From NCBI GenBank assembly GCA_030430205.1, contig JAUIGE010000010.1, positions 1-64,000 on the forward strand: a DNA stretch of 64,000 nucleotides. Reading direction: 5' to 3'. A program made the position numbers and the translations under genes. Below are positions 22,370 to 63,780 of the stretch, in pieces. Under the pieces are notes generated by a model. It searched no databases. It saw only the letters and a list, made by a program, of their open reading frames with translations, and had not been told where the DNA came from. This DNA is from Bacteroidia bacterium. GTDB lineage: Bacteria > Bacteroidota > Bacteroidia > J057. The stretch's first letter is position 1; each line of letters begins with the position of its first letter.

Positions 22370-22386
22370 AATTGCATTTTTTTTCT

Positions 22387-24750: not shown

Positions 24751-24776
24751 ATTGGGATAGATTTAATCCAGATATC

Positions 24777-24834
24777 TTATCTCGTTTGTTAAACCAAACA
24801 GGTTTTGAAAACTCGTTTGGTTTAAACGAGATAA
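24777..24834. promoter_or_regulatory. Long inverted repeat in the permease/regulator divergent region
   Basis: The left arm (24777-24799) and right arm (24815-24834) pair over 20 bases with a 3-base bulge (TTATCTCGTTT...AAACCAAAC). The octamer ACGAGATA appears at 24826-24833 and 24836-24843 and inverted in the left arm. A second palindrome, ATAATCA/TGATTAT, lies at 24863-24878. The position, 27-84 bases before the permease ATG, suits an operator for the divergent regulator or a leader hairpin. Confidence 0.5.
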
Positions 24835-24983
24835 TACGAGATACAAAAAGCAGACCCAACAAATAATCAACTGATTATCAGACCAATATCTACAAATTTA
24901 CCAATCTTCTCATCCTCTAATCAAAAAAAATGTCTTATTTTGGCACAAATTACGTCTCAATCTGACACAAAAAAAGCTACCGC

Positions 24984-29482: not shown

Positions 29483-29546
29483 ACGTCCGCCTTTGGAATC
29501 AGAATTGCACTTACAGTACTTCAACGGTCAGACGAAAACAGTGAAC

Positions 29547-32500: not shown

Positions 32501-33041
32501 GACGGAGATAGTGCTGAGCGCCCAGACGCTGGGCGGAGACGTAGGCCTCTCCTGGGAGACGACTTCTACAGGCGAAGGCCTGGAGTTCTCGGTCGAGCGA
32601 TCGCTCGATGGAAGCATCTTTGAGCGCCTGGACATCCTGACCGGCGGAAGTTCCTTCCGCTACGCCTACTGGGACCCTGCTCCGGGCGTCAAACGCCTTT
32701 TTTACCGCCTGTATATTTTGGACGCCAATGGCGAATCCAGCTATTCCAATACCGTCGAAGTTATGTTCGACGAGTCTGATGCGCTGTGGGTATGGGTTTC
32801 ACCCAATCCTGTACAAAAACAGGAAAAGCTGATTGTTTCCAGTTACCTGGCTCATGCCGGTGGTATCCGCCTGATTTTACGCAATACGCTCGGGCAGGAA
32901 GTTCTGTACCAGGAGATTTCATCAGCCCAGGGCAAGCAGCGAAATCAACTATTGCTCAATGGTTTAGCTCCCGGCATTTACTACCTCGAAGCTATCACGG
33001 ACAAGGGAGAAAAACAGGTGGTGAAAATTGTGAAGAATTGA
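29547..33041 (+). CDS. Secreted M43 (cytophagalysin/pappalysin-type) metalloprotease with PKD domains and T9SS tail
   Basis: 1164 residues from ATG 29547, chosen because it begins a clear signal peptide (MKKQLLLFLGIMPFMLFAQ). The zinc site HEMGHVFGLEH (about residues 296-306) and the Met-turn NFMSYSGC (about 377) are those of family M43. Three PKD-like domains follow: WNWSFDMG (about 453), YSWDFGDGG (about 840) and WLWSFGDGS (about 935). A beta-sandwich region lies between the first and the last two. The end (VSPNPVQKQEKLIV ... LNGLAPGIYYLEAI) is a type A sorting domain. It is an extracellular or surface protease; its end is only six bases from the convergent LytTR regulator. Confidence 0.93.
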   Translation: MKKQLLLFLGIMPFMLFAQKTPIGTPQTAPHLKNKVKSTQDIMGFSWLEEGKYEEKRIGTTRVLVPHQAGQSLRTAAFGQPLLPRQAQNQRQLPLSPNGKLLSPEGYEVDFVVPRSNLQHGGCLTPVPVVNFSGSSRANCPVSVPCDSAVNRDAAIPMLGDPIKNFKLRWTVVGSTAGNFPINQAGIDSLMSELNAHYSPWLVQFCTEGAHFVTNATLADIEPFSEDFNLKTTLGDSSQQLINIYVVENIQIAGTPANQIIAGYAKFPYDVGGGTDIQGGIVLSSAGTPAGVFALTHEMGHVFGLEHTFRGVSEVSSCTACYESVTSANGSSSNGDTEGDWCSDTNPHPVKTGQCFDPIDPNNSCDLFPWNNTPRNNFMSYSGCTNTFTSQQAGRMHCMIDSYLGSWLAYGNSFCNSLPPVADFRGTPVRYVAPAHVTFTDLSSTAFPISTWNWSFDMGAVGGVSPATFSGQTPPVVTYTLPGLYTVKLVVSNANGADSVTKISYIEVLASSTDCDTLDSQWLLPTNTPSRFTWTMAPASGYVTGVPNFYNWSQTGIYSQNTNWYERFTAPTPGASQVGAVRLGIGGFVDADSSMDIDVYVYDDDGFGAPDINAGPVGGITGLEVYRIGLPQTFLTEIWLVFDTLVTPATTNFHVGVEMNGFNSTDRLILQSSTIGEGEADASNHCMPTFYNYFSDDGIDFDLHIVPMLGEWPAIFNATGFGQSSSCDTTFVLLTDTILFNQTMVNASFVLDDGRNISTNTVSDLDTLFVLFTEPGPVTGYVATVNECGRVDTFNFTISYLFNETPDPDFTIAQTNPVCISIPGVDFTATPVPSASIATYSWDFGDGGSAGPLAGNTVNHIYTVPGNYYVSLTVEDTLGCIGTEQKLNFINAVDCSVVAPQAGFSYSPQSACALQVVNFTDTSVATANPTTSWLWSFGDGSFSTLQNPSHTYNSTGTFTVTLTAGNAGGSTSASTTVTVGNCPFATEIVLSAQTLGGDVGLSWETTSTGEGLEFSVERSLDGSIFERLDILTGGSSFRYAYWDPAPGVKRLFYRLYILDANGESSYSNTVEVMFDESDALWVWVSPNPVQKQEKLIVSSYLAHAGGIRLILRNTLGQEVLYQEISSAQGKQRNQLLLNGLAPGIYYLEAITDKGEKQVVKIVKN

Positions 33042-40138: not shown

Positions 40139-40340
40139 GACGCTGATTTACACTGATTGTTATGATCTCTTATGTTATACTTAGGACCTGAAACCATATA
40201 GGCCATTTAAGGACATATAAGGCGAAAATGCGGTCATTCTTATATGTTCTGTATGCCCTTATATGGTTGTGCAAGCAGGACTTTCTATGCGGTTCAAAGT
40301 ATAACATCTTAAATCATAAAAATCTGCGTCGATCTGCGTC
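40139..40340. repeat. GACGCWGATTT inverted-repeat family, member A
   Basis: The left end (GACGCTGATTTACACTGATT, 40139-40158) and the right end (AAATCTGCGTC repeated, to 40340) are inverted relative to each other. The ends match those of the elements at 42881-43010 and 56629-56704. A smaller element with its own terminal inverted repeats sits inside (40172-40307). The right end touches the stop codon of the GT2 gene. A short GGGGTTT tract lies beside it at 40109-40130. Confidence 0.7.
40172..40307. repeat. 136-bp element with 11-bp terminal inverted repeats
   Basis: Perfect ends ATGTTATACTT (40172-40182) and AAGTATAACAT (40297-40307) enclose a second, imperfect inverted repeat (ACCATATAGG... 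with ...CCCTTATATGGT). There is no coding frame. The shape is that of a miniature inverted-repeat element. Confidence 0.6.
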
Positions 40341-41287
40341 TACTCCTCCTCATCCACATTCGTCTCACGAATGACATACAGCGGCCGATTCCGCACATTC
40401 GTGCTGATCCGGTTAATATATTCCCCAATGATGCCGATCGTAATCAGCTGTATGCCGCCGATAAAGAGGACGGAAAGGATAAGGGAAGTCCAACCGGGCT
40501 CGAAGTCTTTCCAGATTAGCCTGCTGACCAGGGCGTAGATCATCATGAGGAAGGCGATGCCAGAAACGGTGAAGCCTGCGATGGTGGCCAGCCTGAGCGG
40601 CAGGTTGGAGAAGCCGGTGATGCCGTCGAGGGCGAAGCGGATCATCTTGCGCAGGGTGTAGCCTGTCTCGCCGGTATGGCGGCTGTCGCGGTCGTACTCG
40701 ACAAAGGTTTGTCGAAAGCCGATCCAGGCGATCTGCCCGCGGATGTATTTGTTCTGCTCGGGCATTTTTTTCAATACCTCCGCCACCTTGCGGTCTATCA
40801 GGCGAAAATCGCCCGTGTCCAGGGGAATGTCCAGCGTCGTGATGCGCGCGAGGGTGCGGTAGAACATTTTGGCAGTGACCTTTTTGAAAAAGGTCTCCCC
40901 TTTCCGCTGCCTCCGCTTCGCGTAGACCACCTCAAAGCCTTCTTTGTACTTCACAAACATCTCCTGAATCAGCTCAGGAGGATCCTGCAGATCCGCATCT
41001 ATGATCACCAGGGCGTCGCCCCGGGCAGCGTCTATGCCCGCCGTGACGGCGATCTGGTGGCCGAAATTTCGGCTGAAGTCGAGGTACTTGACCTGCGCAT
41101 CTTTTTGCGCGAGCTCCATCACCAGGGCGAGTGAGTTGTCACGGCTGCCGTCATTGACGAAGAGCAGCTCATAGCTTTCGCCCAGCTTATGCATCACTTG
41201 CGTAAGGCGCTCATAGAGCACAGGGATATTGCCTTCTTCGTTGTATATGGGAATGATGATCGAGAGGGTCGGCATGTTGTTGCTCAC
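40340..41287 (-). CDS. GT2 polyprenyl-phosphate glycosyltransferase (GtrB/CsbB/DPM1-like)
   Basis: 315 residues from GTG 41287, or 311 from ATG 41275. The GT2 domain shows IIPIYNEEGNIPVLYERL, FVNDGSRDNS, NFGHQIAVTAGID and DADLQDPPELI; the C-terminus has two membrane segments (about 232-255 and 268-290). This layout is known for enzymes that move a sugar from a nucleotide donor to undecaprenyl phosphate. The GTG overlaps the upstream stop as GTGA, supporting coupled translation. It is a paralogue of the gene at 43140. Confidence 0.92.
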   Translation of the reverse strand: MSNNMPTLSIIIPIYNEEGNIPVLYERLTQVMHKLGESYELLFVNDGSRDNSLALVMELAQKDAQVKYLDFSRNFGHQIAVTAGIDAARGDALVIIDADLQDPPELIQEMFVKYKEGFEVVYAKRRQRKGETFFKKVTAKMFYRTLARITTLDIPLDTGDFRLIDRKVAEVLKKMPEQNKYIRGQIAWIGFRQTFVEYDRDSRHTGETGYTLRKMIRFALDGITGFSNLPLRLATIAGFTVSGIAFLMMIYALVSRLIWKDFEPGWTSLILSVLFIGGIQLITIGIIGEYINRISTNVRNRPLYVIRETNVDEEE

Positions 41288-42843
41288 TTAATAACTAATT
41301 TTTCATAAGGAATTACTTCCCAGTTTTCCACCGCTTTTGTCTCCGAACTAAAACTGATACCCACGGCCAGAACTTCCTTATCCTGTCCCAGATAGGGGGC
41401 TCCGTAGCGCTTATCGCGGATTTGATTTAAGTCCGTTTCTACGGTTTGGTCGAGTTTCAATTCCGCGATGAAAATGTATTTTTCATTTTGCAGGATGCAG
41501 TCTACCCGTCCGGCGGAGGTGCTTACCTCCGATTGGATAAAAAGCCCTACGGCATGAAAGGCGATATGCAGGATCGAATGGAAATATTTCTCCTGATGCT
41601 GAATAAAGATTTGGTAGGGAATACTGGCAAAAAGCGCATTGATCTGCTGGATAAAGGTATCCATATCCTTCACATCAAGGGCCAGTTTCATGCGGGCAAA
41701 AAGCAGTTGGGATTCCGTCGTCGTCGTATGGCGAAAAGCGCCCAGCAGATGGCGATACATCGCATCTTTCACCTCCAGATTGGGATAGCCCAGGGTATAG
41801 AGCCGCAATTCTTCGTTGACCTCTTTGATGGTCAGGTAGCCCGTTTGGAAGAGCAGAGAGGCAGTATCCTCACTGCCCAGCGTATAGCTTTCGAATAAAT
41901 CCGTGCCACCCATATAGTTTTCCAGCTCAAACTGGAAGCTGCGACGGAGCCGCTGCATCAGGAAAGTCGGCGTGCCGGTCTCCCACCAGAAATTGGAAAA
42001 ACGACCATGAAAAAACAGGTTCAGGATGGAAAAAGGATTGTACATGCGATGTGGGCCATCCCATGAATATCCGTTGTACCAGGTTTTAATTTTATCGAGA
42101 AGGGCAGTTTTCGGGAGCGAATATGCCTCTTCCAAATGCGCTATTTCGGGAGCAAATACGTCTTCCAATTCTGCCTGAGAATAGCCACAGATATCATCAA
42201 AATGCTGCGAAAGCGTTATATCATTCAGGTTATTCAAATCAGAAAAAATCGAAACCCTGCTAAACTTGGAGACGCCTGTGATGAAGAAGAAGCGAAGGTA
42301 AGGGTCCGAGTCTTTGAGGACGGAATAAAAACTTTTGAGGATAGCCCGATTCGTTTCGGCATGCACCTGATCGTCCATATAATCAACCAAAGGCTTATCA
42401 TATTCGTCGAGCAATAACACAACCTTGCCGTCACGCTCAGCCACACTTTTTATCAATTCCCGAAATTGTTGGTCAAAAGCATGTTCTTTCAGTTCTACAT
42501 GATGTTCACCAGCCAATTCCTCAATTCTTCGGGTCAGGGCAACATCCAGGCCCTGGGTTTTATACCCAATACTGCTAAAAGAAAGATGAATCACAGGATT
42601 CCGCTGCTCCCAATCCCATTGATCTTCGATCCATAGGCCTTTAAAAAGCGATTTTTCTCCCTGAAAAAGGTACTTCAGCGTAGATAAAAGAAGTGATTTT
42701 CCAAACCGTCTTGGGCGCGAAAGGAAATAATACTTCCCCTCACCTACCAAATTATTGATTTGACGGGTTTTGTCTACATATAAGTATCCTCCGTTACGGA
42801 TTTCCTGAAAATCCTGTAGCCCGATGGGGTATTTCCTTTTCAT
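41284..42843 (-). CDS. AAA-ATPase-like / PD-(D/E)XK nuclease family protein (DUF1703 type)
   Basis: 519 residues. The N-terminal AAA-ATPase-like domain has GLQDFQEIRNGGYLYVDKT, a Walker A-like RPRRFGKSLLLSTL (about 43-56) and Walker B VVLLLDEYDKPL (about 141-152). The C-terminal PDDEXK_9 domain has GRVDCIL followed by FIAELKL (about 463-480), the expected D...ExK nuclease site. This family is abundant and often multicopy in Bacteroidota; its role is unknown, and a defence or mobile-element function has been suggested. It ends in a four-base overlap with the GT2 gene, an unexpected partner. Confidence 0.93.
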   Translation of the reverse strand: MKRKYPIGLQDFQEIRNGGYLYVDKTRQINNLVGEGKYYFLSRPRRFGKSLLLSTLKYLFQGEKSLFKGLWIEDQWDWEQRNPVIHLSFSSIGYKTQGLDVALTRRIEELAGEHHVELKEHAFDQQFRELIKSVAERDGKVVLLLDEYDKPLVDYMDDQVHAETNRAILKSFYSVLKDSDPYLRFFFITGVSKFSRVSIFSDLNNLNDITLSQHFDDICGYSQAELEDVFAPEIAHLEEAYSLPKTALLDKIKTWYNGYSWDGPHRMYNPFSILNLFFHGRFSNFWWETGTPTFLMQRLRRSFQFELENYMGGTDLFESYTLGSEDTASLLFQTGYLTIKEVNEELRLYTLGYPNLEVKDAMYRHLLGAFRHTTTTESQLLFARMKLALDVKDMDTFIQQINALFASIPYQIFIQHQEKYFHSILHIAFHAVGLFIQSEVSTSAGRVDCILQNEKYIFIAELKLDQTVETDLNQIRDKRYGAPYLGQDKEVLAVGISFSSETKAVENWEVIPYEKLVIK

Positions 42844-43139: not shown

Positions 43140-44078
43140 ATGTGCAAATACTCTGTTGTCGTGCCGGCTTATAATGAAGAAGCGAATATCGGGCTGCTGT
43201 ATGAGCGGGTCAAAAAGGTTTTTGCTTCCCTGGGGGAAAGTTGGGAATTGATATTTGTCAACGACGGCAGCCGCGACCGTACGCTGGAGACCCTGCAAAA
43301 GCTCGCCCAAGGCGATCCCCATGTCAAATACCTCGACCTGAGCCGCAACTTCGGCCACCAGCCCGCCCTGACCGCAGGGCTTGAACACGCCAGCGGCCTG
43401 GCTGTTATCTCCCTGGACTGCGATCTGCAGGATCCGCCTGAGCTGATCCCGGATATGATCCAAAAATGGCGCGATGGCGCCGACATCGTCTACGCCCGCC
43501 GCACCAACTACCGCCGCGACAACTTCCTCAAGCGGCAGGGCTCCCGCCTCTACTACCGCATGCTCAGCAGGTTCACAGAGGTGGACATTCCGCGCAATGT
43601 AGGCGACTTCCGCCTGGTGGATAAGCGGGTACTCGCAGCCGTCAACGAGATGCGCGAAGGCTCGCGCTACCTGCGCGGCATGGTCGCCTGGACAGGCTTC
43701 AGCCACGATTTCGTGGACTACGAGCGGCCCGACCGCGAAGCGGGCGAGTCCCAGTACAGCCTGATGAAACTCATCAAGCTCGGCATGAGCGGCCTCTTCA
43801 ACTTCTCAAGCCTGCCCCTGCAGGTGGGATTTGTGCTGGGGATCTTCAGCATCCTCTTCGGCTTCATCTTTTTGGGATATATGAGCTGGGATGTGCTGGT
43901 GCGGAATTCAAAGTATGAATTTTTCAAATTCCTGGTCGTGGTGATGTTTATTTTTATGGGCTTCCTCTTTATGCTGATGTGGCTGCTCGGAGAGTATGTA
44001 GGCCGGATTTACAATGAAGTGCGAAAGCGACCTATTTATTTGGTGAAGGAGAAGGGGAATTTTGGGAAAAGGAGGTAG
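43140..44078 (+). CDS. GT2 polyprenyl-phosphate glycosyltransferase, second paralogue
   Basis: 312 residues. Same plan as the gene at 40340: VVPAYNEEANIGLLYERV, FVNDGSRDRTLETL, NFGHQPALTAGLE, DCDLQDPPELIPDM, then two C-terminal membrane segments (about 225-250 and 262-288) and the ending RIYNEVRKRPIYLVKE. Predicted to load undecaprenyl phosphate with a sugar on the cytoplasmic face. It is GC-rich (39 G/C in the 60 bases from 43321), unlike the genes that follow. Confidence 0.92.
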   Translation: MCKYSVVVPAYNEEANIGLLYERVKKVFASLGESWELIFVNDGSRDRTLETLQKLAQGDPHVKYLDLSRNFGHQPALTAGLEHASGLAVISLDCDLQDPPELIPDMIQKWRDGADIVYARRTNYRRDNFLKRQGSRLYYRMLSRFTEVDIPRNVGDFRLVDKRVLAAVNEMREGSRYLRGMVAWTGFSHDFVDYERPDREAGESQYSLMKLIKLGMSGLFNFSSLPLQVGFVLGIFSILFGFIFLGYMSWDVLVRNSKYEFFKFLVVVMFIFMGFLFMLMWLLGEYVGRIYNEVRKRPIYLVKEKGNFGKRR

Positions 44079-44088
44079 GTTTGGGGGT

Positions 44089-44814
44089 ATGAAGATACTC
44101 AATACAATAAATATTAATTCATTCCGAACTAGGATTGAACTTTGGAAATACCTAATTGATAAATCTGAAGCAAAAAAAATTGCAGAAATTGGGGTATATA
44201 AAGGAGCCTTTGCTGAAGAAATTTTAAGGGAATGCTCAAAAATAAACCAATATTACCTAATTGACCCATGGCGAAATCTGGAAAATTGGAACAAGCCGGC
44301 TAATAAAACAGATGATGTTTTTGAAACCTATTACCAGGAAGCACTCCGAAAAACTTCATTTGCCGCAGAAAAAAGAATCATCTTAAGAGGAAAAACGACA
44401 GAGGTTATTGATGAAATACCTTCTCAAACCTTGGATTTTGCATACATTGATGGAGACCATACACTAAAAGGAATTACAATTGATTTAATCACGATTTGGG
44501 ATAAAGTAAGCGAAAATGGGATACTCGCTGGGGATGATTTTTCTCCCTCTATTTGGCAGCATGATTTAAGATATGAACCGACCCTGATTTTCCCATTTGC
44601 CGTCTATTTTGCAGAAGCGATGGATGTAAAAATCTATGGCTTACCCTTTAACCAATTCTTAATTGCAAAAAGCGAAAAAGGGTTTGAATTCATTGATATG
44701 ACTCCTAAGAAATCATATCGTCATATTGAATTAAAATCTCAGTTTAAACCTGGAGTTAAAGAAAATTTAAAAACGCTTTTCAATAGACTCTATTTCTGGC
44801 GAAAGAAGTATTAA
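44089..44814 (+). CDS. Class I SAM-dependent methyltransferase
   Basis: 241 residues from ATG 44089, chosen because a good ribosome site (AAGGAGGT, about 44069-44076) precedes it. Motif I is IAEIGVYKGAFAEEIL (about 31-46); DFAYIDGDHTLKGI (about 117-130) is the acidic motif typical of Methyltransf_24-type enzymes, many of which modify sugars or small glycan precursors. It is the first clearly AT-rich gene of the cluster (15 G/C in the 60 bases from 44101). Confidence 0.85.
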   Translation: MKILNTININSFRTRIELWKYLIDKSEAKKIAEIGVYKGAFAEEILRECSKINQYYLIDPWRNLENWNKPANKTDDVFETYYQEALRKTSFAAEKRIILRGKTTEVIDEIPSQTLDFAYIDGDHTLKGITIDLITIWDKVSENGILAGDDFSPSIWQHDLRYEPTLIFPFAVYFAEAMDVKIYGLPFNQFLIAKSEKGFEFIDMTPKKSYRHIELKSQFKPGVKENLKTLFNRLYFWRKKY

Positions 44815-44848
44815 TCGTTTCCTTAAGATTTAAGTTCAAACATTCAGA

Positions 44849-46030
44849 ATGACAAAAAGCGTACCCCATATCCTCATTCTTAATTATGAATATCCTCCTT
44901 TAGGCGGGGGAGGGGGGGTAGTATCACGCCACCAAGCGGAAGGATTAGCAAGTAGTAAAAGATATAAAATAACTGTACTAACCGCTTGGTTTGAAGGAGA
45001 AGAAGAAATTGAAAATAAAAATGAGTTTCTTCGAATTGTACGCGTCAAGAGTAAGCGAAAGCATGTCCACCAATCCAACCCAGTGGAGATGATATCTTGG
45101 GTCTCAAAAGCATGGGAGTTTCTCAGGAATGACCCTACTGATTATGCGCTTTCCTTTGGTCACTTTTCCATCCCAAGTTCTATTCCAGCTAAGCGACTTT
45201 GGAAAGAGCGAGGTGTTCCCTACATCGTCATTTCTCATGGGCAGGACATCCCTTGGTTCTTCCCTAAGCAAATGTTGAAATATCATTTAGTCACCTATTT
45301 TTGGGTAAAAAGTATTATTAAACCTGCCAAGAATCTGGTCCTTCTCACAGAGAAGATGAAGAAAAATGCTGACCGCTTCATGGGTAAGCATAAGCACAAA
45401 AACCTGATTATCCCAAATGGATGTAATACGGACTTTTTCAAACCAGATTTTTCTAAGAAGAGTAAACAATTCAAGATCATTTTTGTAGGACGAATCGTGG
45501 CTCAAAAAGGGCCCTTGATTTTTATGAAAGCTATTAGGGAATTGATAAAAAGATTACCTGATGCTGATATCGAGGTCAAAGTAATTGGCGATGGCCCCAT
45601 GCGGAAGGACATGGAATCCTTCATAGAAAAATATCAGTTAGGTGAAATCATAAAAACTACCGGCTGGATCACAAAAGAAGAACTCTTAGTAGACTATCAG
45701 AGTGCTAGTCTACAATTAATTACTTCTTACGATGAGGCCATGTCTATTGCCGCATTAGAATCTCTGTCTACAGGCTTATTTGTCATCTCAACACCGGTAA
45801 GTGGGAGTACTGATTTAATTGAAACCGGTGACTCTGGAGACTTTTTTAGCTTTGGAAAGTGGAAAGAAGCAGCGGATAAAATGGAAGATTTCTATCACAA
45901 AAAATTTAAGAAGGGATGGCTAGTTGACCCCACAAAGTTAAAAGACTTTCGAAAACAGTACGATTGGAAACAAATAGTACATATGTATGAAAAGTTAATT
46001 TCCGACTCGCAAATAACAAAGAATAAATAG
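44849..46030 (+). CDS. GT4-family glycosyltransferase
   Basis: 393 residues with the GT-B fold pattern: glycine-rich N-terminal loop (GGGGGVVSRHQAEGLA), IIPNGCNTDFF at the domain junction, FVGRIVAQKGPL, then the donor-binding EAMSIAALE (EX7E) and PVSGSTDLIETG. Retaining transfer of a sugar from a nucleotide donor during assembly of the surface glycan is expected. It starts 34 bases after the methyltransferase stop in the same AT-rich block. Confidence 0.92.
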   Translation: MTKSVPHILILNYEYPPLGGGGGVVSRHQAEGLASSKRYKITVLTAWFEGEEEIENKNEFLRIVRVKSKRKHVHQSNPVEMISWVSKAWEFLRNDPTDYALSFGHFSIPSSIPAKRLWKERGVPYIVISHGQDIPWFFPKQMLKYHLVTYFWVKSIIKPAKNLVLLTEKMKKNADRFMGKHKHKNLIIPNGCNTDFFKPDFSKKSKQFKIIFVGRIVAQKGPLIFMKAIRELIKRLPDADIEVKVIGDGPMRKDMESFIEKYQLGEIIKTTGWITKEELLVDYQSASLQLITSYDEAMSIAALESLSTGLFVISTPVSGSTDLIETGDSGDFFSFGKWKEAADKMEDFYHKKFKKGWLVDPTKLKDFRKQYDWKQIVHMYEKLISDSQITKNK

Positions 46031-46031
46031 G

Positions 46032-46730
46032 ATGGGTGCCAATCATGAAAAAGTCTCTTTATTAGCTAAGCAGGTGTTCAGACAGGCTCCAGCACTCAGC
46101 ATGAAGGTGTACAAACATCTACCCGTAGCCAATCCCTATAAAAACCTTCATGATACACATCAGGCTATTTTCATTCATATCCCCAAATGCGCTGGAATAA
46201 GTATTTCTGAATGCTTGTTCAGCGAGCAAGTAGGACATTGGATGATCTGGAAATACCAAGCATATGATGCTATCAAGTACGGCAGCTATTTCAAGTTTTC
46301 ATTCGTCAGAAATCCGTGGGACCGCATTTTATCAGCTTATACCTTCATGAAAAAAGGAGGCATAAATTCTTATGACAAATTCTGGGGAGAAAAATACTTA
46401 AAAGGGCTTGATGATTTTGAACAATTTATCTTGGCACTAGAGAATAAGTCCTTTGCTAACAAAGTAAAGGGAAGCCTTCACTTTTTACCTCAAAGACTTT
46501 TTTTATTAAACCTTGAAAATAAAATTGATCTGGACTTTCTTGGTAGGTTTGAAAACTTGGAAAATGATTTTGAATTATTGAAGCAGGAATCGAACCTTCA
46601 AGGCGAATTACGCAAACTAAATAAGTCAAAACATCGAGTATATACCAGCTATTACACTACAAAAATGCAAAAGATTGTTGCTGACTTTTACCAGGAAGAT
46701 ATTGATACGTTTAAGTATTCTTTCGAATAG
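46032..46730 (+). CDS. Sulfotransferase family protein (Sulfotransfer_2 type)
   Basis: 232 residues. The PAPS 5'-phosphosulfate loop is seen in IFIHIPKCAGISISECLF (about 46-63) and the 3'-phosphate site in SFVRNPWDRILSAYTFM (about 94-110), as in enzymes that sulfate carbohydrates. A basic C-terminal region fits this. It starts one base after the GT4 stop, so the two are translationally linked. It predicts a sulfated sugar in the product of this cluster. Confidence 0.88.
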   Translation: MGANHEKVSLLAKQVFRQAPALSMKVYKHLPVANPYKNLHDTHQAIFIHIPKCAGISISECLFSEQVGHWMIWKYQAYDAIKYGSYFKFSFVRNPWDRILSAYTFMKKGGINSYDKFWGEKYLKGLDDFEQFILALENKSFANKVKGSLHFLPQRLFLLNLENKIDLDFLGRFENLENDFELLKQESNLQGELRKLNKSKHRVYTSYYTTKMQKIVADFYQEDIDTFKYSFE

Positions 46731-46817
46731 GAACTGGAATAAGACAACTATTTTTTAGCTGCAATCCTCTACTACAGAACCAAGCTCCTATCGTAGAGAA
46801 GCTCCTGCGATTTAACC

Positions 46818-48161
46818 ATGGACGATAAATCAATCAACAGAAATGTAGCATTTACTTCAATTGCCAGATTTATTTCTATGGTTCTAACATTCATCTATTC
46901 AGTTTTGATGGTTAGATTATTGGGGGTTGAGGGTAATGGCGTATTCAGCTTTTTGTATGTCAATGCAAACATCGGTGTCTTAATATTTGGAATGAACGTT
47001 CGTAGCGCCATGGTTTACTATTTGGCCAAAGGTGACTTTCCTCGAGAAAAAATTGCAGGATTTGTCTTTTTAGTTTTAAGCTTCGCTATGATAATTGTAG
47101 CAATAATTGGAGGCGCCCTTTTTTCAACTCATAGTCCTGCTTTAGCCATAATATTACCCAAAGGATTTCAAGGGATTTTTTTTCTTTGCTATTTTCTTTT
47201 AAGTTTTTTTGCTCAAGCAATAATTCAGTTTTGTAGTGCATATGCCGTTGGGAATTTGCTTTACAGAATATTTAACCAATACACAGTGGTAAGTGCCATA
47301 GCCAAGGTGCTACTGATTGGTTTGTTTTATGCTGGATCAATTATAGGTTTCTGGGAAAAAAACCTTTACAGTTTATTTGTTTTATTTTTAGGAATTGAAA
47401 TCTTATTTGCAGCCATTTTTTTGATTATACTTCAGCTTCGCCAAGCTTTTAAACTCAGTTTTCAGTTTTCATATTCCGATTTTATTAAACCATTCCTTAT
47501 TTATTCAATCAAGGGATGGACCATGGATCTGCTAAGCTTTTTTACCAATCGATTCTTTAATTGGGTAGTCACTCTATATCAAGGCCTGAAATCTCTCAGT
47601 TTCATTGCATTAGCAATCAGTTTGCTTAATAATGTCGAACTCTTTTTTTATCCAATATATCAGGCATTAAAGCCCTATCTAATAAAACTTGATAAAGCTG
47701 AGGGAGAGCAACGGTTTTTATTTTACTTTCGGTTAACCAATACCATTGCTATTATTTTTAGTGTGGGGGCATTATTACTAAGTGACTTTTTTCTCCCTCT
47801 TATATTCGGGGAAGAATTTCAGGATGCAGTAGTCATTACACAAATCATTTTTTTCAGCATGCCTTTTCTAACGATACGAGGGATGGGGAGAATGTATGCC
47901 TCTGCTCATAATCTTCATCAGTTTATGGTAATAGCTGAAGCCATAGGTTTTGGTGTAACAGTCGTGGGAGACCTTATTTTTATCCCAAGTTACGGAATCA
48001 TTGGAGCTAGTTGGGTTATGTTAGCGGCTTATTTACTTACGGGGAGTTTTGTAGGTTTTTTTCTTGTCAAAAGAATGCAAGTTCCTGTTTTAGGTAATCT
48101 AATATTAAAAGCAAGTGACCTAAAAGCAATTAGGAATTATCTGAATGACAAAAAAAGTTGA
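46818..48161 (+). CDS. Wzx-like polysaccharide flippase (MOP superfamily)
   Basis: 447 residues with about twelve to fourteen membrane segments. The N-terminal RNVAFTSIARFISMVLTF and RLLGVEGNGVFSFLYVNAN are characteristic of oligosaccharide flippases, and the C-terminal half repeats the pattern (GIIGASWVMLAAYLLTG). It should move the lipid-linked repeat unit across the inner membrane. It lies between the two sulfotransferase genes, six bases before the second. Confidence 0.9.
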   Translation: MDDKSINRNVAFTSIARFISMVLTFIYSVLMVRLLGVEGNGVFSFLYVNANIGVLIFGMNVRSAMVYYLAKGDFPREKIAGFVFLVLSFAMIIVAIIGGALFSTHSPALAIILPKGFQGIFFLCYFLLSFFAQAIIQFCSAYAVGNLLYRIFNQYTVVSAIAKVLLIGLFYAGSIIGFWEKNLYSLFVLFLGIEILFAAIFLIILQLRQAFKLSFQFSYSDFIKPFLIYSIKGWTMDLLSFFTNRFFNWVVTLYQGLKSLSFIALAISLLNNVELFFYPIYQALKPYLIKLDKAEGEQRFLFYFRLTNTIAIIFSVGALLLSDFFLPLIFGEEFQDAVVITQIIFFSMPFLTIRGMGRMYASAHNLHQFMVIAEAIGFGVTVVGDLIFIPSYGIIGASWVMLAAYLLTGSFVGFFLVKRMQVPVLGNLILKASDLKAIRNYLNDKKS

Positions 48162-48167
48162 ATTAAT

Positions 48168-49040
48168 ATGATATTACGTATCCTAAAAATAACAACATGG
48201 ACGATCCTCTTATGGGGTAAATCTTTAATCCGGAATATCAAGTTTAGCTTCTCTAAGAAAGACAAGGTTTTCAATCCTGTTTTCCTTATCGGCTGTGGTC
48301 GGTCTGGAACAACTATTTTGGGAACTACCCTGGGGCAACATGTGGAAATCACTTATTTGAATGAAAGAAGAGATATTTGGCATACAGCTTTTCCTGAATT
48401 AGATATTTGGTCCGGCATCCCAATAAAGCCCAGATTTCAAGTAGGCTCAGAAGATATTTCTCCAAAGAAAAAGCAGAAATTAAGAAGTCTTTTTTTCAAA
48501 GAACAAACGATTGACAAGGGCAATATTTTACTTGAAAAACTTCCCATTAATACTTTTCGACTAGAATTTATCGAGGCAATCTTTCCAGAAGCCAAATATA
48601 TATACCTATATCGTAATGGATTAGAGGTAGCTCAATCTATAGCTGTATATTCAGAAAAAGGAGAATGGTTTGCTGCTGGAGAGGAGAGGTGGAATACGTT
48701 TTCAAAATTAGCAGAACTCAAAAACATCTCAATTCGTGGAAACAGTTACTTGGAAAAGGGGCTGTCAGAGTGGCGACTTTCCACTGAATATGCCGAAGAT
48801 TTTTTCCAAAAGATTGCTGCTGATCGTTTTTTCAAACTGTCTTACCAAGACTTTTTGAATGATCCACAAGTTCAAGTTAAGCAACTCTATTCTTTTCTTG
48901 GTATTTCGTTTGAAGATTCTTTTGTACAAAAAATCACCAAGGGGATATCTCGACGCAGTAGTTTGCAAATTGCAATTACTCCTGCTCTAAGAGATATTGG
49001 GGGAGAAACATTAATCAAGTCAATTGAAAATAGCTTGTAA
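48168..49040 (+). CDS. Sulfotransferase family protein (Sulfotransfer_3 type)
   Basis: 290 residues. The 5'-phosphosulfate loop IGCGRSGTTILGTTLGQH (about 41-58) and the 3'-phosphate motif YLYRNGLEVAQSIAVYSE (about 143-160) are clear. An N-terminal hydrophobic stretch may tie it to the membrane. It is only distantly like the sulfotransferase at 46032, so two different sulfation steps are likely. Confidence 0.88.
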   Translation: MILRILKITTWTILLWGKSLIRNIKFSFSKKDKVFNPVFLIGCGRSGTTILGTTLGQHVEITYLNERRDIWHTAFPELDIWSGIPIKPRFQVGSEDISPKKKQKLRSLFFKEQTIDKGNILLEKLPINTFRLEFIEAIFPEAKYIYLYRNGLEVAQSIAVYSEKGEWFAAGEERWNTFSKLAELKNISIRGNSYLEKGLSEWRLSTEYAEDFFQKIAADRFFKLSYQDFLNDPQVQVKQLYSFLGISFEDSFVQKITKGISRRSSLQIAITPALRDIGGETLIKSIENSL

Positions 49041-49167
49041 AAGGCATTCCTATGATTGGTACACTTGCTCAAACTTACAACTGAATACAATTAGTTTACA
49101 CATCATTATGGGTACATTTGTTTTTTGGAAAAAGAGGTTCGATTTTTACTAAAAATACCATTCTCCA

Positions 49168-50166
49168 ATGAGTCTGTTTTCTGTTTCGGTAATTATACCG
49201 GTCTATAATGCAATAGCCTTTTTAGAGGAAGCTGTGGAGTCTGCATTAGCTCAGGAAGAGACAGAGGAGGTTCTCTTGATCGAAGATGGCTCTCAAGATG
49301 ACTCCCTCAGTTTATGTATAAAGCTTGCACAGAAATACCCAAAAGTGTTTTGTTATCATCATCCTAATCGTCAAAATCTAGGGATTGGAGCTTCCAGAAA
49401 TCTTGGAATTGAGAAAGCAAAGACCCCTTACTTGGCGTTTTTAGATGCTGATGATTATTTTCTAGCAAATAGATTCAAAAAAGCAAAAGAGGTTTTTTTA
49501 CAACATGCCGATGCAGATGCTGTGTATAGCGCATTGATTAACAAATTTGAACGAGAAGAACTTAAGATAGCCTGGGAAGCGAAGGGGCACCCTCACATTC
49601 ACACCATGTCACATGCAATTCCTCCAACCGAGTTATTTCAAGCCATAGTGGAAAAGAGAAATGGCCACTTTTTACCTTCCAGTGTAATCATTAAAAAGGA
49701 AACCTTTGATAAAGTAGGCGGCTTTCCTACCATTATGAAGGTTTTTGCAGAAGACATACATATGTTTTTAAGAATTTCTGCAATCGGAAACTTTTATGCA
49801 GGTGAAATCCAAAAGCCCTTAGGAGTACATAGAGTTCATGGAACCAATCTAATGCTTGAAGATAACGAGCAAAACTTTCTTGTAAATACTCGCGTGAATG
49901 AGGATATTCTCGAATGGCTTGTGGATATGAAAGTTGATGATGAAAAAGGTAAACTGCTACTCCTTAGGTGCATCATCGACTTTGGGAAATATCACCTTAC
50001 CTTTTCTCCAAAAGGAGAAAAAAGGAAACTTCTTGCTGCAAAAATAAAGGAACTTTATACAAAATATCCTCAATTCATTAGTTTAAAGACTCGGATAATG
50101 GCCCGGGTGGTATATTTTGGGCTATTCCCCTTTGTAAGAAAAATTGTAATGCTTTTCTCAAAATAA
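49168..50166 (+). CDS. GT2-family glycosyltransferase
   Basis: 332 residues of GT-A type: SVIIPVYNAIAFLEEAVESA, IEDGSQDDS, GIGASRNLGIEKA and the metal-binding AFLDADDYFL (about 90), then EDIHMFLRIS, which contains the catalytic acidic region. There is no membrane segment of note except a hydrophobic C-terminal patch. It adds one sugar of the repeat unit; donor and acceptor are unknown. The 127-base gap before it is AT-rich, without clear signals. Confidence 0.9.
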   Translation: MSLFSVSVIIPVYNAIAFLEEAVESALAQEETEEVLLIEDGSQDDSLSLCIKLAQKYPKVFCYHHPNRQNLGIGASRNLGIEKAKTPYLAFLDADDYFLANRFKKAKEVFLQHADADAVYSALINKFEREELKIAWEAKGHPHIHTMSHAIPPTELFQAIVEKRNGHFLPSSVIIKKETFDKVGGFPTIMKVFAEDIHMFLRISAIGNFYAGEIQKPLGVHRVHGTNLMLEDNEQNFLVNTRVNEDILEWLVDMKVDDEKGKLLLLRCIIDFGKYHLTFSPKGEKRKLLAAKIKELYTKYPQFISLKTRIMARVVYFGLFPFVRKIVMLFSK

Positions 50167-50177
50167 TATCAACTCTG

Positions 50178-50987
50178 ATGACTAAGAATGAATCCGAACT
50201 ACCCTTAGTATCTATTCTTATTCCTTCTTACCAACAAAAGGCATTTCTCAAGGAGGCAATTGAAAGTGCACTTGCTCAATCTTACCCAAACCTTGAAATT
50301 ATCGTGAGTGATGATGGCTCTACAGACGGATCAGTTGAATTAATCCAATCCTATGAGCAGAAATACCCCAATATCATACGAGGGCTATTCGAAGAACAAA
50401 ATATCGGAACTATTGGCAACTTCAATAAATTAAACGCTGAAGGAAGAGGGAAGTATAAGTGTAGACTAGATGGGGATGATCTCATGGCCCCAAACAATAT
50501 TTCTACCCAAGTAGCAATTCTCGAGGCCAATCCACAGCTTATTGGCACATACCACAATTTAGAATTGTTTGAATCTGATTCAGGAAAAAAAATCTGTAAC
50601 TTTATTAATAGAAAAAGACCCGCTAGAAAAGGGACTATCCAGAATGTAATCAAATATGGCTGCTTCTTCCCGGGCGCTTTTACCCTTTTAAGAAGGGAAG
50701 CATTAGCTGGAAGAAAAAATTCAACAAAAGCAAAAGTTGTCTCAGATTATCTCTTCATGACAGATGTACTTGCACATGGAGGTGAAATAGGATATATAGA
50801 TCAAATCCTAGGCAGGTACCGGATTCACGAAAATAATATTACGGGCAGTCGAATACGGTTAATAAAACACACGATTTGGGCTGTTGGAATTATTGCCATA
50901 AAGTACCCAAAATATACTTTCTTATGTATATATCGGATATTTGACGCTGCCAGAGCGGTAATCACCAAACGAAATACTTGGATTTAA
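50178..50987 (+). CDS. GT2-family glycosyltransferase
   Basis: 269 residues: SILIPSYQQKAFLKEAIESA, VSDDGSTDGS, NIGTIGNFNKL and RLDGDDLMAPN (about 90-100). It starts 11 bases after the previous GT2 gene and is the last of the AT-rich run. The end faces the convergent YfhO-type gene with 33 bases between the stops. Specificity cannot be read. Confidence 0.9.
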   Translation: MTKNESELPLVSILIPSYQQKAFLKEAIESALAQSYPNLEIIVSDDGSTDGSVELIQSYEQKYPNIIRGLFEEQNIGTIGNFNKLNAEGRGKYKCRLDGDDLMAPNNISTQVAILEANPQLIGTYHNLELFESDSGKKICNFINRKRPARKGTIQNVIKYGCFFPGAFTLLRREALAGRKNSTKAKVVSDYLFMTDVLAHGGEIGYIDQILGRYRIHENNITGSRIRLIKHTIWAVGIIAIKYPKYTFLCIYRIFDAARAVITKRNTWI

Positions 50988-51020
50988 AACCCTATAACGG
51001 AACGATTCAGTCAAGTATCT

Positions 51021-53507
51021 TTATTCTCCTATATTGTCTTTTTTTTTATACCAAAAGATCAGCCCAATAAACAGAGCTAGTCCTATCATTGATACGGAAA
51101 TAAGTAGAGGCATATTTGACCTCCCATGCTTCATCTCCACATCATGCTCCCCCTTAGGCACCATCCCTCCCATAAAGCCCACATTCACCCGCAACAACTC
51201 CACCTCTTCCCCATCCACATACATAGACCATCCATTATCAAAAGGAATGCTGAAAAAGAGTAACTTTTCCCGATCCATATTCACCTTCCCACTCAAATGA
51301 TCATGATGAAATTCCGTCATTTGGAATGCTCCTTGTTTCCTTTCCTGTATATAGCCCTGCAAAGCGGGGTAGGTAAACTGTCCTGGATCTATCAGTTGGG
51401 CATTAAAGGCGGATAGCGAAGAAAGTTGGCTCGCAACTTCATCCGGGATGACTGCTGCCTGTACCAGGCTTATGTCTTTTTTGTTTCTGTCAAGCTCCCG
51501 GAATGCACTTTCTGTCACAAACTGATCATAGGTGAAGCCAAAGGGTATGAAGTAAGGGTTTTCAAATATTCTGACATTTTCCACTGCGCCCCACTGGGAG
51601 TAACCTCTTTGGGTTAAATCAGAACCGTTGTCTTCTCTCAGAATGTATTTTACACTTGCTACATACTGGAGTATAGGCCGATCTCTTAAGCCCTGTATCC
51701 ATTTTGTTTTAGCAACATTCCCTGCTTCCATCATATCCGTTGCTACCAGAAAATCAAGGTAACTCTGTTTGTTGATGGATCGGTAAGTAGGCGTACTGAA
51801 GAATCCCTGAACCATGGCATCATTGAGGCTGTAATGGATGGCGGGACTGGATGCAAAGTCTTTTTGTATCCGGTAAAAGCCGGGGTCTTTTTCTTTGATT
51901 TGTTTAAGCGCATCAACACTGCTATCCCCATATAATGCGCCGGCTTTGTACTCAGACTTGGTTATCGGGTCTCTATCATGGGTGACATGGTGATTAAATG
52001 TGGCGAGTTCAACAACGACTATTACCATTAACAACCCAAGGCCTACAAATTTAAATTTTGGTCTACTCATCACAAATAGGCTTGCAGCACTGGCTATCAG
52101 AAAGACATTGGCAGCCATTTGCAGGCCTTCATTCACGCGACCGTCATCGAAATAGGGATAGTTTAGCAAAACCAAACAGCCTATTAAACTCAATAACAAA
52201 GTTGGAAGATGTACCTTCCCTGATTTCTCGATAGCATTTAGCCCATAAAGCGCCACAAATAAGAAGATCAAAGAGGCATGTAAACAAAAGGAGCGAAAAT
52301 GGTCCGTAACAAAAAGGAAGTAGGCATATCTAAAGAAGGGGAAAATACAGATCATCAGCCAAAATGCCAATAACCCGCCAAAGAGAGCCTTATGCCATTT
52401 TTTTGCATGGTAAAAAGCCTGTGGAATCAGGAGAAGAGAGACTAGCCCCACATAATAAAAGGGAGATTCCAGATAATTGCGGTAGCCCTTAAAATCTTTG
52501 GCACCACCCAGCATATCTGTGGCAAAAGTCCTAAGGATAGACGTTACATTGACAAGGTAGGAATTCAGTGCAAAAACGGGGGTCTCCGTGGTTTGTGCCA
52601 CCTTGGAGGCTTCTCCAGAGATTCGGGAACTGCCCAGCATATTCATCAGGGTCTGGCCAAAAAAGTAGGAAGCGATTGTCACACCCAAAGCGCTCAAAGC
52701 ACCAATTTTCAGCCAGAAAAGAATCAGACCTTTCCAGTTCCAGCCGTTTTCCAATACATACCTAAAGAAAGAATAGACGATCAGGAAAAAACCAAAAGTG
52801 ACTAGCCTGGGTCCTGCCAGGAAGTAGATGGCGATAGGGAGCACGATGGGGTTATTCTTTTTCAGGAGAAGCTCAGTCCCCCACAGCATCAAAGGTGCTG
52901 CAAAGATTAATCCATTATAGGAGTACCAGCTATGGACTCCCATGACATAACCAGAGAAAACATAGAGGATTGAACCTAATATGACAACGTATTTACTAAA
53001 GCCAACCGTTTTTAGGTATTGGAAACAAAACAGGCCTGCAATTCCAAGATACGCGACAGATGTCCATATCATAGTATAGGGAAGGGCTTTTTTCCCTGCT
53101 AACAGATTGATCCAATAGAAAGGATTGATGCTGAACCAGGTTCCCATATTGTTACCCATCCCTTGCCTAAAACTCCAGGAAGTAAAACCTTCTTCTTTAA
53201 ACAAATCGTGCCGCTGAACCACAGTAGGAAACACATCATTCACCGTATCACTCCCAATATCCTTAAACAAATACAAATACTCCCCAAACAGATAATCTCC
53301 AAAGACGATCAGGCTCAGCAGGAGCATCAGGCCCAGGGCCACCCAATTGGCTCGGGGGTAGATATATTTTTCAAAAAAATCGCCGTAGAGCGGTTCTATT
53401 TCCGATGTTGGCGCTTTTTGCTTTTGGCTTTTTACCGCTTTGGAGGAAGGAGATGCCTTTTGGCGTTTAGGGGTGGATTTACGCTTTGGAGGTTGCTTCT
53501 TTGCCAT
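51021..53507 (-). CDS. YfhO-family polytopic membrane protein (GT-C type)
   Basis: 828 residues from ATG 53507; the frame opens upstream to 53606, but the head from there has no support. A lysine-rich cytoplasmic N-terminus (about 1-50) precedes about twelve membrane segments. DIGSDTVNDVFPTV in the first outer loop holds the acidic residues expected of GT-C enzymes, and the long C-terminal beta domain (about 540-800, with SIPFDNGWSMYVDGEEVEL) is typical of YfhO. In Firmicutes YfhO works with a CsbB-type GT2 to decorate a surface polymer. Two such GT2 genes lie in this locus. Confidence 0.9.
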   Translation of the reverse strand: MAKKQPPKRKSTPKRQKASPSSKAVKSQKQKAPTSEIEPLYGDFFEKYIYPRANWVALGLMLLLSLIVFGDYLFGEYLYLFKDIGSDTVNDVFPTVVQRHDLFKEEGFTSWSFRQGMGNNMGTWFSINPFYWINLLAGKKALPYTMIWTSVAYLGIAGLFCFQYLKTVGFSKYVVILGSILYVFSGYVMGVHSWYSYNGLIFAAPLMLWGTELLLKKNNPIVLPIAIYFLAGPRLVTFGFFLIVYSFFRYVLENGWNWKGLILFWLKIGALSALGVTIASYFFGQTLMNMLGSSRISGEASKVAQTTETPVFALNSYLVNVTSILRTFATDMLGGAKDFKGYRNYLESPFYYVGLVSLLLIPQAFYHAKKWHKALFGGLLAFWLMICIFPFFRYAYFLFVTDHFRSFCLHASLIFLFVALYGLNAIEKSGKVHLPTLLLSLIGCLVLLNYPYFDDGRVNEGLQMAANVFLIASAASLFVMSRPKFKFVGLGLLMVIVVVELATFNHHVTHDRDPITKSEYKAGALYGDSSVDALKQIKEKDPGFYRIQKDFASSPAIHYSLNDAMVQGFFSTPTYRSINKQSYLDFLVATDMMEAGNVAKTKWIQGLRDRPILQYVASVKYILREDNGSDLTQRGYSQWGAVENVRIFENPYFIPFGFTYDQFVTESAFRELDRNKKDISLVQAAVIPDEVASQLSSLSAFNAQLIDPGQFTYPALQGYIQERKQGAFQMTEFHHDHLSGKVNMDREKLLFFSIPFDNGWSMYVDGEEVELLRVNVGFMGGMVPKGEHDVEMKHGRSNMPLLISVSMIGLALFIGLIFWYKKKDNIGE

Positions 53508-53618
53508 GGGAAAATTTGAAAATTCAGGAGTTTTTGTTCTGCTTCCCAAAGTTAACACACATATTGCACACTCCAACAAAAACCGCCAAATTGCTGCCAC
53601 TCTCAATCACATCTCAAC

Positions 53619-54551
53619 ATGTTACGAACCATCATCCTTCTGCTCGCCACCCTGATCGTCCTGCCTTTTGTCGCTTTTACGGCTGACGCCTCTCCGGGCG
53701 AGGCCCAGTGGGCTGCGCTCAAAACGCTGGGCATGATGATGCTGGTGGTGTCGGTGGCGACTTTCCTGATCAGCGAACTCAGCAAAAACTACAGCCAAAC
53801 GGACAAATTGTGGAGCATCATGCCCATCGTTTACAGTTGGTTTGTGGCGATGCATTCGGGTTGGAATGAGCGGGTGCTGCTGATGGCGGTGCTGGTAACG
53901 GTCTGGGGCGTCAGGTTGACGCTCAACTTCGCGCGGCGCGGTGGCTATAGCTGGATCCCCTGGAAAGGGGAGGAAGACTACCGCTGGGCGGTCTTGCAGG
54001 CGATGCCTTTGTTTAGCAAAAAATGGCGTTTTACGCTCTTTAACCTCTTTTTTATTTCCTTTTATCAGCAGGCGCTGATCCTGATGTTTACGCTGCCGAT
54101 CGTGGCAGCCTGGCAGGGGGGCGACACGCCCCTGGGCTGGCTGGACTATCTCGCAGCAGCTTTGCTGCTGGGCATGGTGGCGATCGAGACGATCGCAGAC
54201 AACCAGCAATACAGCTGGCAGTCCGAAAAGCACCGCCGCAAAGCGGCGGGAGAAGCTTTGGGCGAATACGCCCAGGGATTTCGCTCCTCAGGCCTCTGGG
54301 GCCTGGTGCGCCACCCCAATTACGCCGCCGAGCAAGGCACCTGGATTGCCTTCTACCTCTTCAGCGTAGCGGCCACAGGCCGCTGGCTCAATTGGTCGAT
54401 CATCGGCATGATCCTGCTGATCCTGCTCTTCCTCGGAAGCTCCGACTTCAGCGAGAAAATCAGCGCCGGGAAGTATCCCGCTTATAAGGATTATCAAAAG
54501 CGGGTGCCGCGCTTTTTGCCGATTAAATGGGGGAAAAAGCCGGAGGCTTAG
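53619..54551 (+). CDS. DUF1295 / steroid 5-alpha-reductase-like membrane protein
   Basis: 310 residues with about eight membrane segments. The conserved DUF1295 features are present: RLTLNFARRGGYSWIPWKGE (about 90-110), WSFQ-like and GLWGLVRHPNYAAEQGTW near residues 226-243, which in the ICMT/steroid reductase superfamily binds the cofactor. Substrate is unknown, probably a lipid or isoprenoid. It is divergent from the YfhO gene, with 111 bases between starts. Confidence 0.88.
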   Translation: MLRTIILLLATLIVLPFVAFTADASPGEAQWAALKTLGMMMLVVSVATFLISELSKNYSQTDKLWSIMPIVYSWFVAMHSGWNERVLLMAVLVTVWGVRLTLNFARRGGYSWIPWKGEEDYRWAVLQAMPLFSKKWRFTLFNLFFISFYQQALILMFTLPIVAAWQGGDTPLGWLDYLAAALLLGMVAIETIADNQQYSWQSEKHRRKAAGEALGEYAQGFRSSGLWGLVRHPNYAAEQGTWIAFYLFSVAATGRWLNWSIIGMILLILLFLGSSDFSEKISAGKYPAYKDYQKRVPRFLPIKWGKKPEA

Positions 54552-56155: not shown

Positions 56156-56430
56156 TTCAGTACAGGACAATTTTTCAGGCAAGCCTCCAAAAGTCCCGAA
56201 GGGACGCTATATGCAGCATGGGGCGAAGCCCCATGAAGGTGAACGACTCCCATAGAAGTCCTGAAAGGACGACATATCTTAAAACGCCATACCCAATATA
56301 TCGCCCTTTCAGGGCTTTAATGCCTGGTCTTAATCGAATGATCGGGCTTTGCCCGATCCTGGAATATGACGTCCCTTCGGGACTTTTGGGGTGTTCATCA
56401 TTCATAGGTTTCATTTTTTGTCCTGTACTT
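56156..56430. mobile_element. MITE-like element with six nested hairpins, copy 1
   Basis: Terminal inverted repeats GTACAGGACAA (56160-56170) and TTGTCCTGTAC (56418-56428) are flanked by the direct repeat AATTGGGTTTC (56145-56155 and 56431-56441). Inside lie six hairpins at 56193-56205, 56217-56235, 56258-56270, 56303-56315, 56341-56357 and 56371-56383. The first pairs with the sixth, the second with the fifth and the third with the fourth as larger inverted repeats. The same order of six hairpins recurs at 63538-63717. No gene is encoded; with member C of another family it accounts for most of the 668-base gap. Confidence 0.8.
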
Positions 56431-56628
56431 AATTGGGTTTCATGTTCTTGAATGGAAGAGTGCTGTATATCATATTGTCGTTTTTGAACAATCTGGAAGT
56501 GCATTGCCTTCATGTCCTGGAGCGGAAAGGCGATCCGGGCTCTCCAAAACACAAGCGCAAGGCGCTTTATTTCACAATTTATTATTTAATCAACCCTTAG
56601 GACGACAATTTGGGATACACCTAAAATA

Positions 56629-63537: not shown

Positions 63538-63717
63538 GCCCCAAAGGGGCGACAGATATCAACACAGGGCAACGCCCTGTGACAAAAAGGTCCCGCATAG
63601 TAGCCCTGCAAGGGCGACATAGCTAATACTTCGCCCTTGCAGGGCTCTCACGATTTATCGGGGGGCTGACTACCATAGGGCTTTGCCCTATGTTGATATA
63701 TATCGCCCCTTCGGGGC
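63538..63717. repeat. Six-hairpin nested palindromic element, copy 2
   Basis: Hairpins at 63538-63550, 63563-63581, 63603-63615, 63633-63645, 63674-63692 and 63705-63717 follow the same order and have the same loops as the element at 56193-56383, but with different, still complementary, stem bases. The outer hairpins again pair with each other as larger inverted repeats. It takes up half of the 398-base gap; the rest holds the operon terminator and nothing else I can see. Confidence 0.85.
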
Positions 63718-63780
63718 TTTTTTGCCGTATTTCCATGCTTAACTCGAAAGGTTAATTTTTTATCATTACTAAGCCATTCC

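Follow-up and report, generated by a model that had tools for sequence, protein, structure and literature searches.

A 64-kb window, the first part of a 181-kb contig (C71) in the 7.24-Mb, 80-contig draft genome of a Bacteroidia bacterium (GCA_030430205.1), carries a locus that, to judge by its genes, probably makes a sulfated, methylated surface glycan. At its left outer end lies GT2rev (40340-41287, minus strand; PF00535), a family 2 glycosyltransferase (GT2) with a membrane C-terminus that resembles the polyprenyl-phosphate sugar synthases GtrB and PgfS. An AAA-ATPase_like/PDDEXK_9 gene on the same strand (41284-42843; PF09820, PF08011) stands between it and a second GtrB/PgfS-like gene, GT2fwd (43140-44078, plus strand; PF00535). 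GT2fwd opens a run of plus-strand genes: a Methyltransf_24 methyltransferase (44089-44814; PF13578), a family 4 glycosyltransferase (GT4; 44849-46030; PF13439/PF00534), a Sulfotransfer_2 family sulfotransferase (46032-46730; PF03567, E 1e-16), a MOP-type, Wzx-like flippase (46818-48161), a Sulfotransfer_3/1 family sulfotransferase (48168-49040; PF13469, E 1e-26), a GT2 (49168-50166; PF00535, E 1e-27) and a last GT2 that is TuaG/EpsE-like (50178-50987; PF00535, E 3e-27; below the NCBIfam TuaG/EpsE cut-offs). The seven spacings between these same-direction genes are 10, 34, 1, 87, 6, 127 and 11 bp, and 43140-50987 is probably one operon. Convergent to it at the right outer end lies a gene for a YfhO/PgfM-like membrane glycosyltransferase (51021-53534, minus strand; PF09586, E 9e-55). 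An initial annotation, which had read 44089-50987 as an AT-rich cassette swapped between conserved flanks, named a methyltransferase, a GT4, two sulfotransferases, a flippase-like protein and two GT2s there, and Pfam bears out this gene content.

Several of these assignments were followed further. GT2fwd matches structures of the Synechocystis GtrB sll0501 over residues 3-304 (E 1e-75), and the membrane helices of the two outer GT2s were read from their sequences. Both have PgfS as their best NCBIfam model (GT2rev E 5e-87), at 291.9 and 240.5 bits against a cut-off of 500. The locus combines a GtrB-type GT2 with a membrane C-terminus and a YfhO-family membrane protein. Compared with solved structures, the Sulfotransfer_3/1 protein weakly matches a polyketide-synthase sulfotransferase domain, the CurM sulfotransferase and tyrosylprotein sulfotransferases, and the YfhO and Sulfotransfer_2 proteins have no match. 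The flippase has no Pfam match of its own; in an alignment of seven flippase-like members, PF01943 was found in five and PF13440 in five. As its AlphaFold model, built from a two-sequence alignment, was too poor for a fold search (mean predicted local distance difference test score 49.5), the flippase is identified from sequence.

We compared the locus with its counterpart in one congener, G001, where it lies on an 89-kb contig (C56); the comparison is thus of n = 1, with no second strain of the species. The gene order there is GT2rev / GT2fwd - GT4 - variable part - flippase / YfhO, with all directions as in the window. By tblastn, identity is 77% for GT2rev, 72% for GT2fwd, 77% for the GT4, 28% for the flippase (over 443 amino acids, aa) and 40% for YfhO. 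A DNA search gave matches elsewhere in G001 for six further window genes, at 43, 53, 54, 64, 66 and 67% identity; this set leaves out the multi-copy AAA-ATPase_like gene, and such a search favours conserved genes. On this scale the GT2s and the GT4 are at least as conserved as other genes, and the flippase and YfhO less so. The frame GT2s lie about 50 bp apart in G001; the AAA-ATPase_like/PDDEXK_9 gene that separates them in the window is absent from this place in G001, over which its relatives (54-72%, some partial) are scattered.

The middle of the locus differs. Between GT4 and flippase, G001 encodes a 592-aa membrane protein (no Pfam match in the first 509 residues, which were scanned), a GT4-type protein and Sulfotransfer_1 and Sulfotransfer_2 proteins, and has about 1.4 kb with only short open reading frames (ORFs; ≤145 aa). 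The PF03567 proteins of the two cassettes do not match significantly (E 0.13), the other sulfotransferase pair is 24% identical (E 1e-4), and the window GT2 at 49168-50166 finds only partial matches in the G001 locus, to the frame GT2s. The best G001 relative of the window Sulfotransfer_2 protein is on another contig (C14, 37%), and this protein finds matches in two of 22 genomes of the order, its own included. The flippase matches 17 of 60 genomes, again including its own, and the G001 protein, which matches PF13440, is the best of the 16 others. None of the G001 proteins encoded between GT4 and flippase thus has a clear counterpart among the window genes. Two consecutive minus-strand ORFs of 145 and 81 aa in the G001 middle (L048 1435-2267, which is G001 C56:71435-72267) resemble, by eye, pieces of a decayed methyltransferase gene; the 145-aa one has no Pfam match.

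Because the GT4 inside the AT-rich run has a 77% counterpart at the same place in G001, as conserved as the GT2 frame, the run is not the one swapped block that had been proposed. The variable part seems instead to consist of the methyltransferase and 46,032-50,987, with the GT4 belonging to the frame.

The methyltransferase looks like the clearest foreign gene of the locus. At E ≤ 1e-15 it was found in five of 395 genomes: its own, one at 32% identity, and three at 53-57% from two further families of the class. At the same threshold it was not found in G001-G020, the 20 other listed genomes of the family and order, and it was probably inserted by lateral transfer between the GT2 and GT4 genes of the frame. 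Three plasmid matches are distant (25-32%). At all four foreign loci (L156, L157, L158 and L159) a Pfam sulfotransferase lies near the methyltransferase relative. In L156 (8395-9906) and L157 (8402-9913), near-copies from the same genus, the methyltransferase overlaps a convergent Sulfotransfer_2-family gene with no obvious glycan cluster, among neighbours that by eye look like housekeeping genes; the distance is 2.2 kb in L159 and 2.4 kb in L158, where a PF03567 member also lies 6.7 kb away. The only other block gene with a relative at these loci is the Sulfotransfer_2 gene, at 31-34% and in two of the four. We take the pairing, counted without a random control at loci of which two are near-copies and L158 is glycan-like, as a lead only; that the two genes travel together as a glycan-modifying pair would be a speculative reading of it.

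The frame itself appears, from its distribution, to be old and patchy. Of 13 family genomes, two (G001 and the one with the window) have the GT4 at E ≤ 1e-40; in the phylum, at least one of 395 genomes has it at E ≤ 1e-80, namely the window's own, with the best four candidates scored per genome. A named collection held seven GT4 relatives, the G001 contig included. In two of the other six, a GT2 lies directly upstream of the GT4 (L070, GT2 61% and GT4 54%; L073, 44% and 40%); no adjacent GT2 was matched in the remaining four, some of which are short contigs. The GT2-GT4 adjacency thus occurs outside the genus, and in the window the methyltransferase splits the pair.

The AT-rich run is genuine: likelihood segmentation, applied to all 64 kb, gives a G+C content (GC) of 0.365 across 43,905-51,117, against a mean of 0.478 (standard deviation 0.024, minimum 0.406) in 281 overlapping 7-kb windows of the same genome, none of which is as low as 0.37. 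This background comprised 407,513 bases and 274 genes from 21 of 24 own-genome stretches, leaving out one that overlaps the window (L046) and two chosen as sulfotransferase-bearing (L055 and L065). Six of the cassette genes have a GC of 0.337 (methyltransferase) to 0.379, at or below the 1.8th percentile of sampled genes, and the GT4 has 0.390, the 2.6th percentile, so that all seven fall within the lowest 2.6%. In six of the seven, codon bias reaches at least the 94th percentile for genes of similar length (the Sulfotransfer_2 gene is at 72.5). The GC-rich frame GT2s are codon outliers too (Karlin percentiles 95.8 and 90.1). Another AT-rich run, of four genes with GC 0.32-0.33, lies elsewhere in the genome (L065 1029-5104, which is C75:13029-17104), so that the cassette is extreme but not alone.

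Nor is low GC proof of import, since it is common to both middles: five variable genes of G001 have a GC of 0.31-0.36, where the G001 genome sample averages 0.455. Orthologous cassettes of the same composition in close relatives had been named as the observation that would speak against a swap; G001 shows the composition, but its middle genes are mostly not orthologous.

The edges of the run are less simple than first described. The counts behind the left boundary are correct (39 G/C among the 60 bases that start at 43321, 15 among the 60 that start at 44101), and GC does drop. The best likelihood change point, however, is not at the methyltransferase start but at 43,904, within the conserved GT2fwd gene, and the reference stretch is GC-rich (0.617 at 43262-43904). 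The contrast is inflated because GT2fwd is itself an outlier in GC at third codon positions (GC3): its 0.744 is at the 99.6th percentile, and its G001 counterpart has 0.414. GC3 is 0.90, 0.65 and 0.56 in the last three 40-codon blocks of GT2fwd; in the middle block of these, GC at the first two codon positions is down to 0.28, where, judged by eye, the protein turns to membrane helices. With only 10 bp between GT2fwd and the methyltransferase, the compositional boundary falls within one probable operon. On the right, the 0.365 segment does end near 51.0 kb as described, at 51,117, but the return is stepwise, to 0.439 there and to 0.532 at 53,635, past YfhO, which is itself at the 15th GC percentile and not extreme. 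An AT-rich island edge can therefore be sharpened by an unusually GC-rich neighbour gene, and low GC over a glycan cassette can take in a gene that was never swapped.

Three genes around the run have GC3 values of 0.74-0.76, at the upper extreme of the sample: 40340-41287 (0.762), 43140-44078 (0.744) and 53619-54551 (0.758), the last a DUF1295 gene. We rejected gene conversion between the frame GT2s as the cause of high GC3, as cross-genome counterparts are 72-77% identical and the two types 41-43% (42% within the window).

What is conserved around the locus appears to be chiefly its own frame. A comparison of nearly the entire 181-kb contig with all 89 kb of the G001 contig gave matches at E ≤ 1e-15 for 10 of 133 ORFs of at least 120 aa, and five of these are the locus itself. 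In the DNA search, matches outside the locus fall mainly on G001 contigs C93 and C24 for window 26.4-43.0 kb, and on C111, C66 and C38 for 44.0-64.0 kb, right of YfhO. A chromosomal neighbourhood conserved on both sides was not found between the window and G001; the proposed swap thus holds in that a different middle lies between the same outer genes, but not in the conserved chromosomal flanks. An exception are three of the other five matching ORFs, histidine kinase-like, FtsX-like and response regulator genes at 21038-26339, about 14 kb left of the frame. Their G001 relatives (32, 33 and 54% identity) lie at 49.6-55.2 kb of the same contig in a different gene order, about 10 kb left of the G001 GT2 pair, and the group may be a remnant of a shared neighbourhood.

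Downstream of GT2rev, at 40191-40268, lies a 78-bp palindrome of which G001 has dozens of copies and the own genome several; a search of four other family genomes found none (best 40 candidates per genome in each case). It is flanked by a CTGCGTC repeat (40139-40188 / 40291-40340) with many copies in the own genome. Elsewhere, the window encodes a Por_Secre_tail protein, which together with the named relatives of the GT4 indicates Bacteroidota. The sole Rfam match of the window is an Acido-Lenti-1 RNA (RF01687) at 63674-63718, which scores 44.3 bits where the gathering score is 37.

The two versions of the locus share a frame, differ in the middle and are both low in GC there, and the methyltransferase is patchy. 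We consider it likely that this is a surface-glycan locus of the replacement-island type, with a fixed frame around a middle that differs between species. The frame would consist of the two divergent GtrB/PgfS-like GT2s, the GT4 and the convergent YfhO gene, and lateral transfer, most likely through recombination between closer relatives that share the frame, would have exchanged the variable middle and added to it. Several results weigh against this. Pfam named no transposase or integrase among the 25 window proteins scanned, the window has no transfer RNA gene, and no repeats convincingly flank the cassette among many weak two-copy families. Low GC extends to the GT4, which is apparently inherited, and the codon outliers among the frame GT2s show that unusual codon use is not peculiar to the middle. 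YfhO matches PgfM1 and PgfM2 in its C-terminal part only and far below their cut-offs (44.6 and 40.4 bits against 1500 and 1400). Pfam named no polymerase, co-polymerase, export protein or initiating transferase among the 25 proteins, which span 26.4-63.4 kb with the ORFs at 29475-33041 and 56175-56552 omitted and the rest of the genome not searched for polymerase or export families, and the pathway is therefore incomplete in the window. Finally, synonymous sites are saturated against G001, with identical codons at 37-39% of conserved residues in the GT2 and GT4 genes, so the two are distant congeners and a recent event cannot be dated; with one such congener, replacement of the flippase and YfhO is not separable from fast divergence.

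An alternative that we think improbable though worth weighing is that the locus was inherited AT-rich, either because codon selection is weak or because of a local mutational regime, and that the differences from G001 reflect old divergence with a few gains and losses. The middles of both species are AT-rich (0.31-0.36 in G001 and 0.34-0.38 in the window), GC3 of the apparently inherited GT4 is at the 2.9th percentile, the flippases share the locus and the G001 one is the best match of the window's among the 16 other matching genomes, and in further own-genome stretches with sulfotransferases many genes are also below average GC. Yet the sulfotransferases, the extra glycosyltransferases and the G001 592-aa membrane protein are not counterparts, the methyltransferase was not found in the other listed genomes of the family and order, and the window YfhO is not extreme in composition. 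A more speculative thought, to which we give little weight, is that low GC belongs to the place and not to a donor. Genes between GT2/GT4 and YfhO, the inherited GT4 too, would be kept AT-rich and the GT2 10 bp away driven GC-rich, giving one probable operon with two opposite codon regimes, perhaps a strongly expressed frame and a silenced, exchangeable middle.

Had all of 44089-50987 come from an AT-rich donor in a single recent import, the uniformly low GC of the block and the codon bias of six of its seven genes would be accounted for. We regard such an import as very unlikely, given the GT4 counterpart within the block, the change point upstream of it, and the other contexts in which the methyltransferase relatives sit, where little else of the block is found. 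That AT-rich DNA was wrongly joined in assembly is hardly credible: the genome is a draft in many contigs, but the run lies well inside a long one, the GT2-GT4 pairing is seen elsewhere, and both the layout and the low GC recur in G001. The idea of replacement is accordingly supported with corrections, in that the variable part is smaller and differently bounded and low GC does not prove import.

Under the favoured reading of a replaced middle, the genes suggest how the glycan might be made. The cytoplasmic GT4 and GT2 enzymes would assemble a short glycan on a polyprenyl carrier, which the methyltransferase and the two sulfotransferases, dependent on 3'-phosphoadenosine-5'-phosphosulfate (PAPS), would decorate. 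The MOP flippase would turn it outward, where the frame pair of polyprenyl-phosphate-sugar synthase and YfhO would add a sugar or join the glycan to an acceptor. The own genome has a full-length adenosine-5'-phosphosulfate (APS) kinase, so that the last step to PAPS is encoded. Since no polymerase or export families were named, we favour a short lipid-linked sulfated glycan as the product over that of a complete capsule locus; this, like the order of steps, the acceptor and the mechanism of recombination, we infer from the predicted gene functions. There is a literature on sulfated capsules of marine bacteria. Among the titles on sulfated bacterial polysaccharides we noticed none that names a Bacteroidota producer, and among those on low-GC polysaccharide islands in Bacteroidota nothing close.

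The locus has partial likenesses to three kinds of known system. Replacement flexible genomic islands, in which different clusters of similar function for exposed glycans occupy the same place, are established (Lopez-Perez et al. 2014, PMC4033161). As in those islands, the window and its one congener have different genes of similar, exposed-glycan function at the same locus, with no clear marks of illegitimate recombination. Those islands, however, were described for strains of one species with peaks of single-nucleotide polymorphisms at the borders, whereas here two distant congeners with a largely unconserved neighbourhood are compared. The xss cluster of Synechocystis, which serves to make the sulfated exopolysaccharide synechan (PMC8205485), has, like the present locus, two sulfotransferases of different subfamilies with several glycosyltransferases and a flippase. 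It also has Wzy and a co-polymerase, neither of which was named here, where the frame consists of GtrB/YfhO-type genes. For these, precedents are the three-component CsbB-GtcA-YfhO glycosylation of teichoic acids (PMC7389260) and the modification of surface proteins by PgfS-PgfM1/M2 in Streptococcus mutans (PMC5856776), which likewise combine a GtrB/PgfS-type GT2 with membrane helices and a YfhO-family enzyme. A GtcA-type protein was not named in our window, and the PgfS and PgfM scores are below the curated cut-offs for equivalogs of the S. mutans proteins. Whereas those systems act on teichoic acids or surface proteins, the pair here frames a multi-gene glycan cassette. Swapping of coat genes is well known as a wider kind of event and the locus is ordinary in kind; what it adds is a locus from Bacteroidota in which two sulfotransferases of different subfamilies stand beside GtrB-like and YfhO genes.

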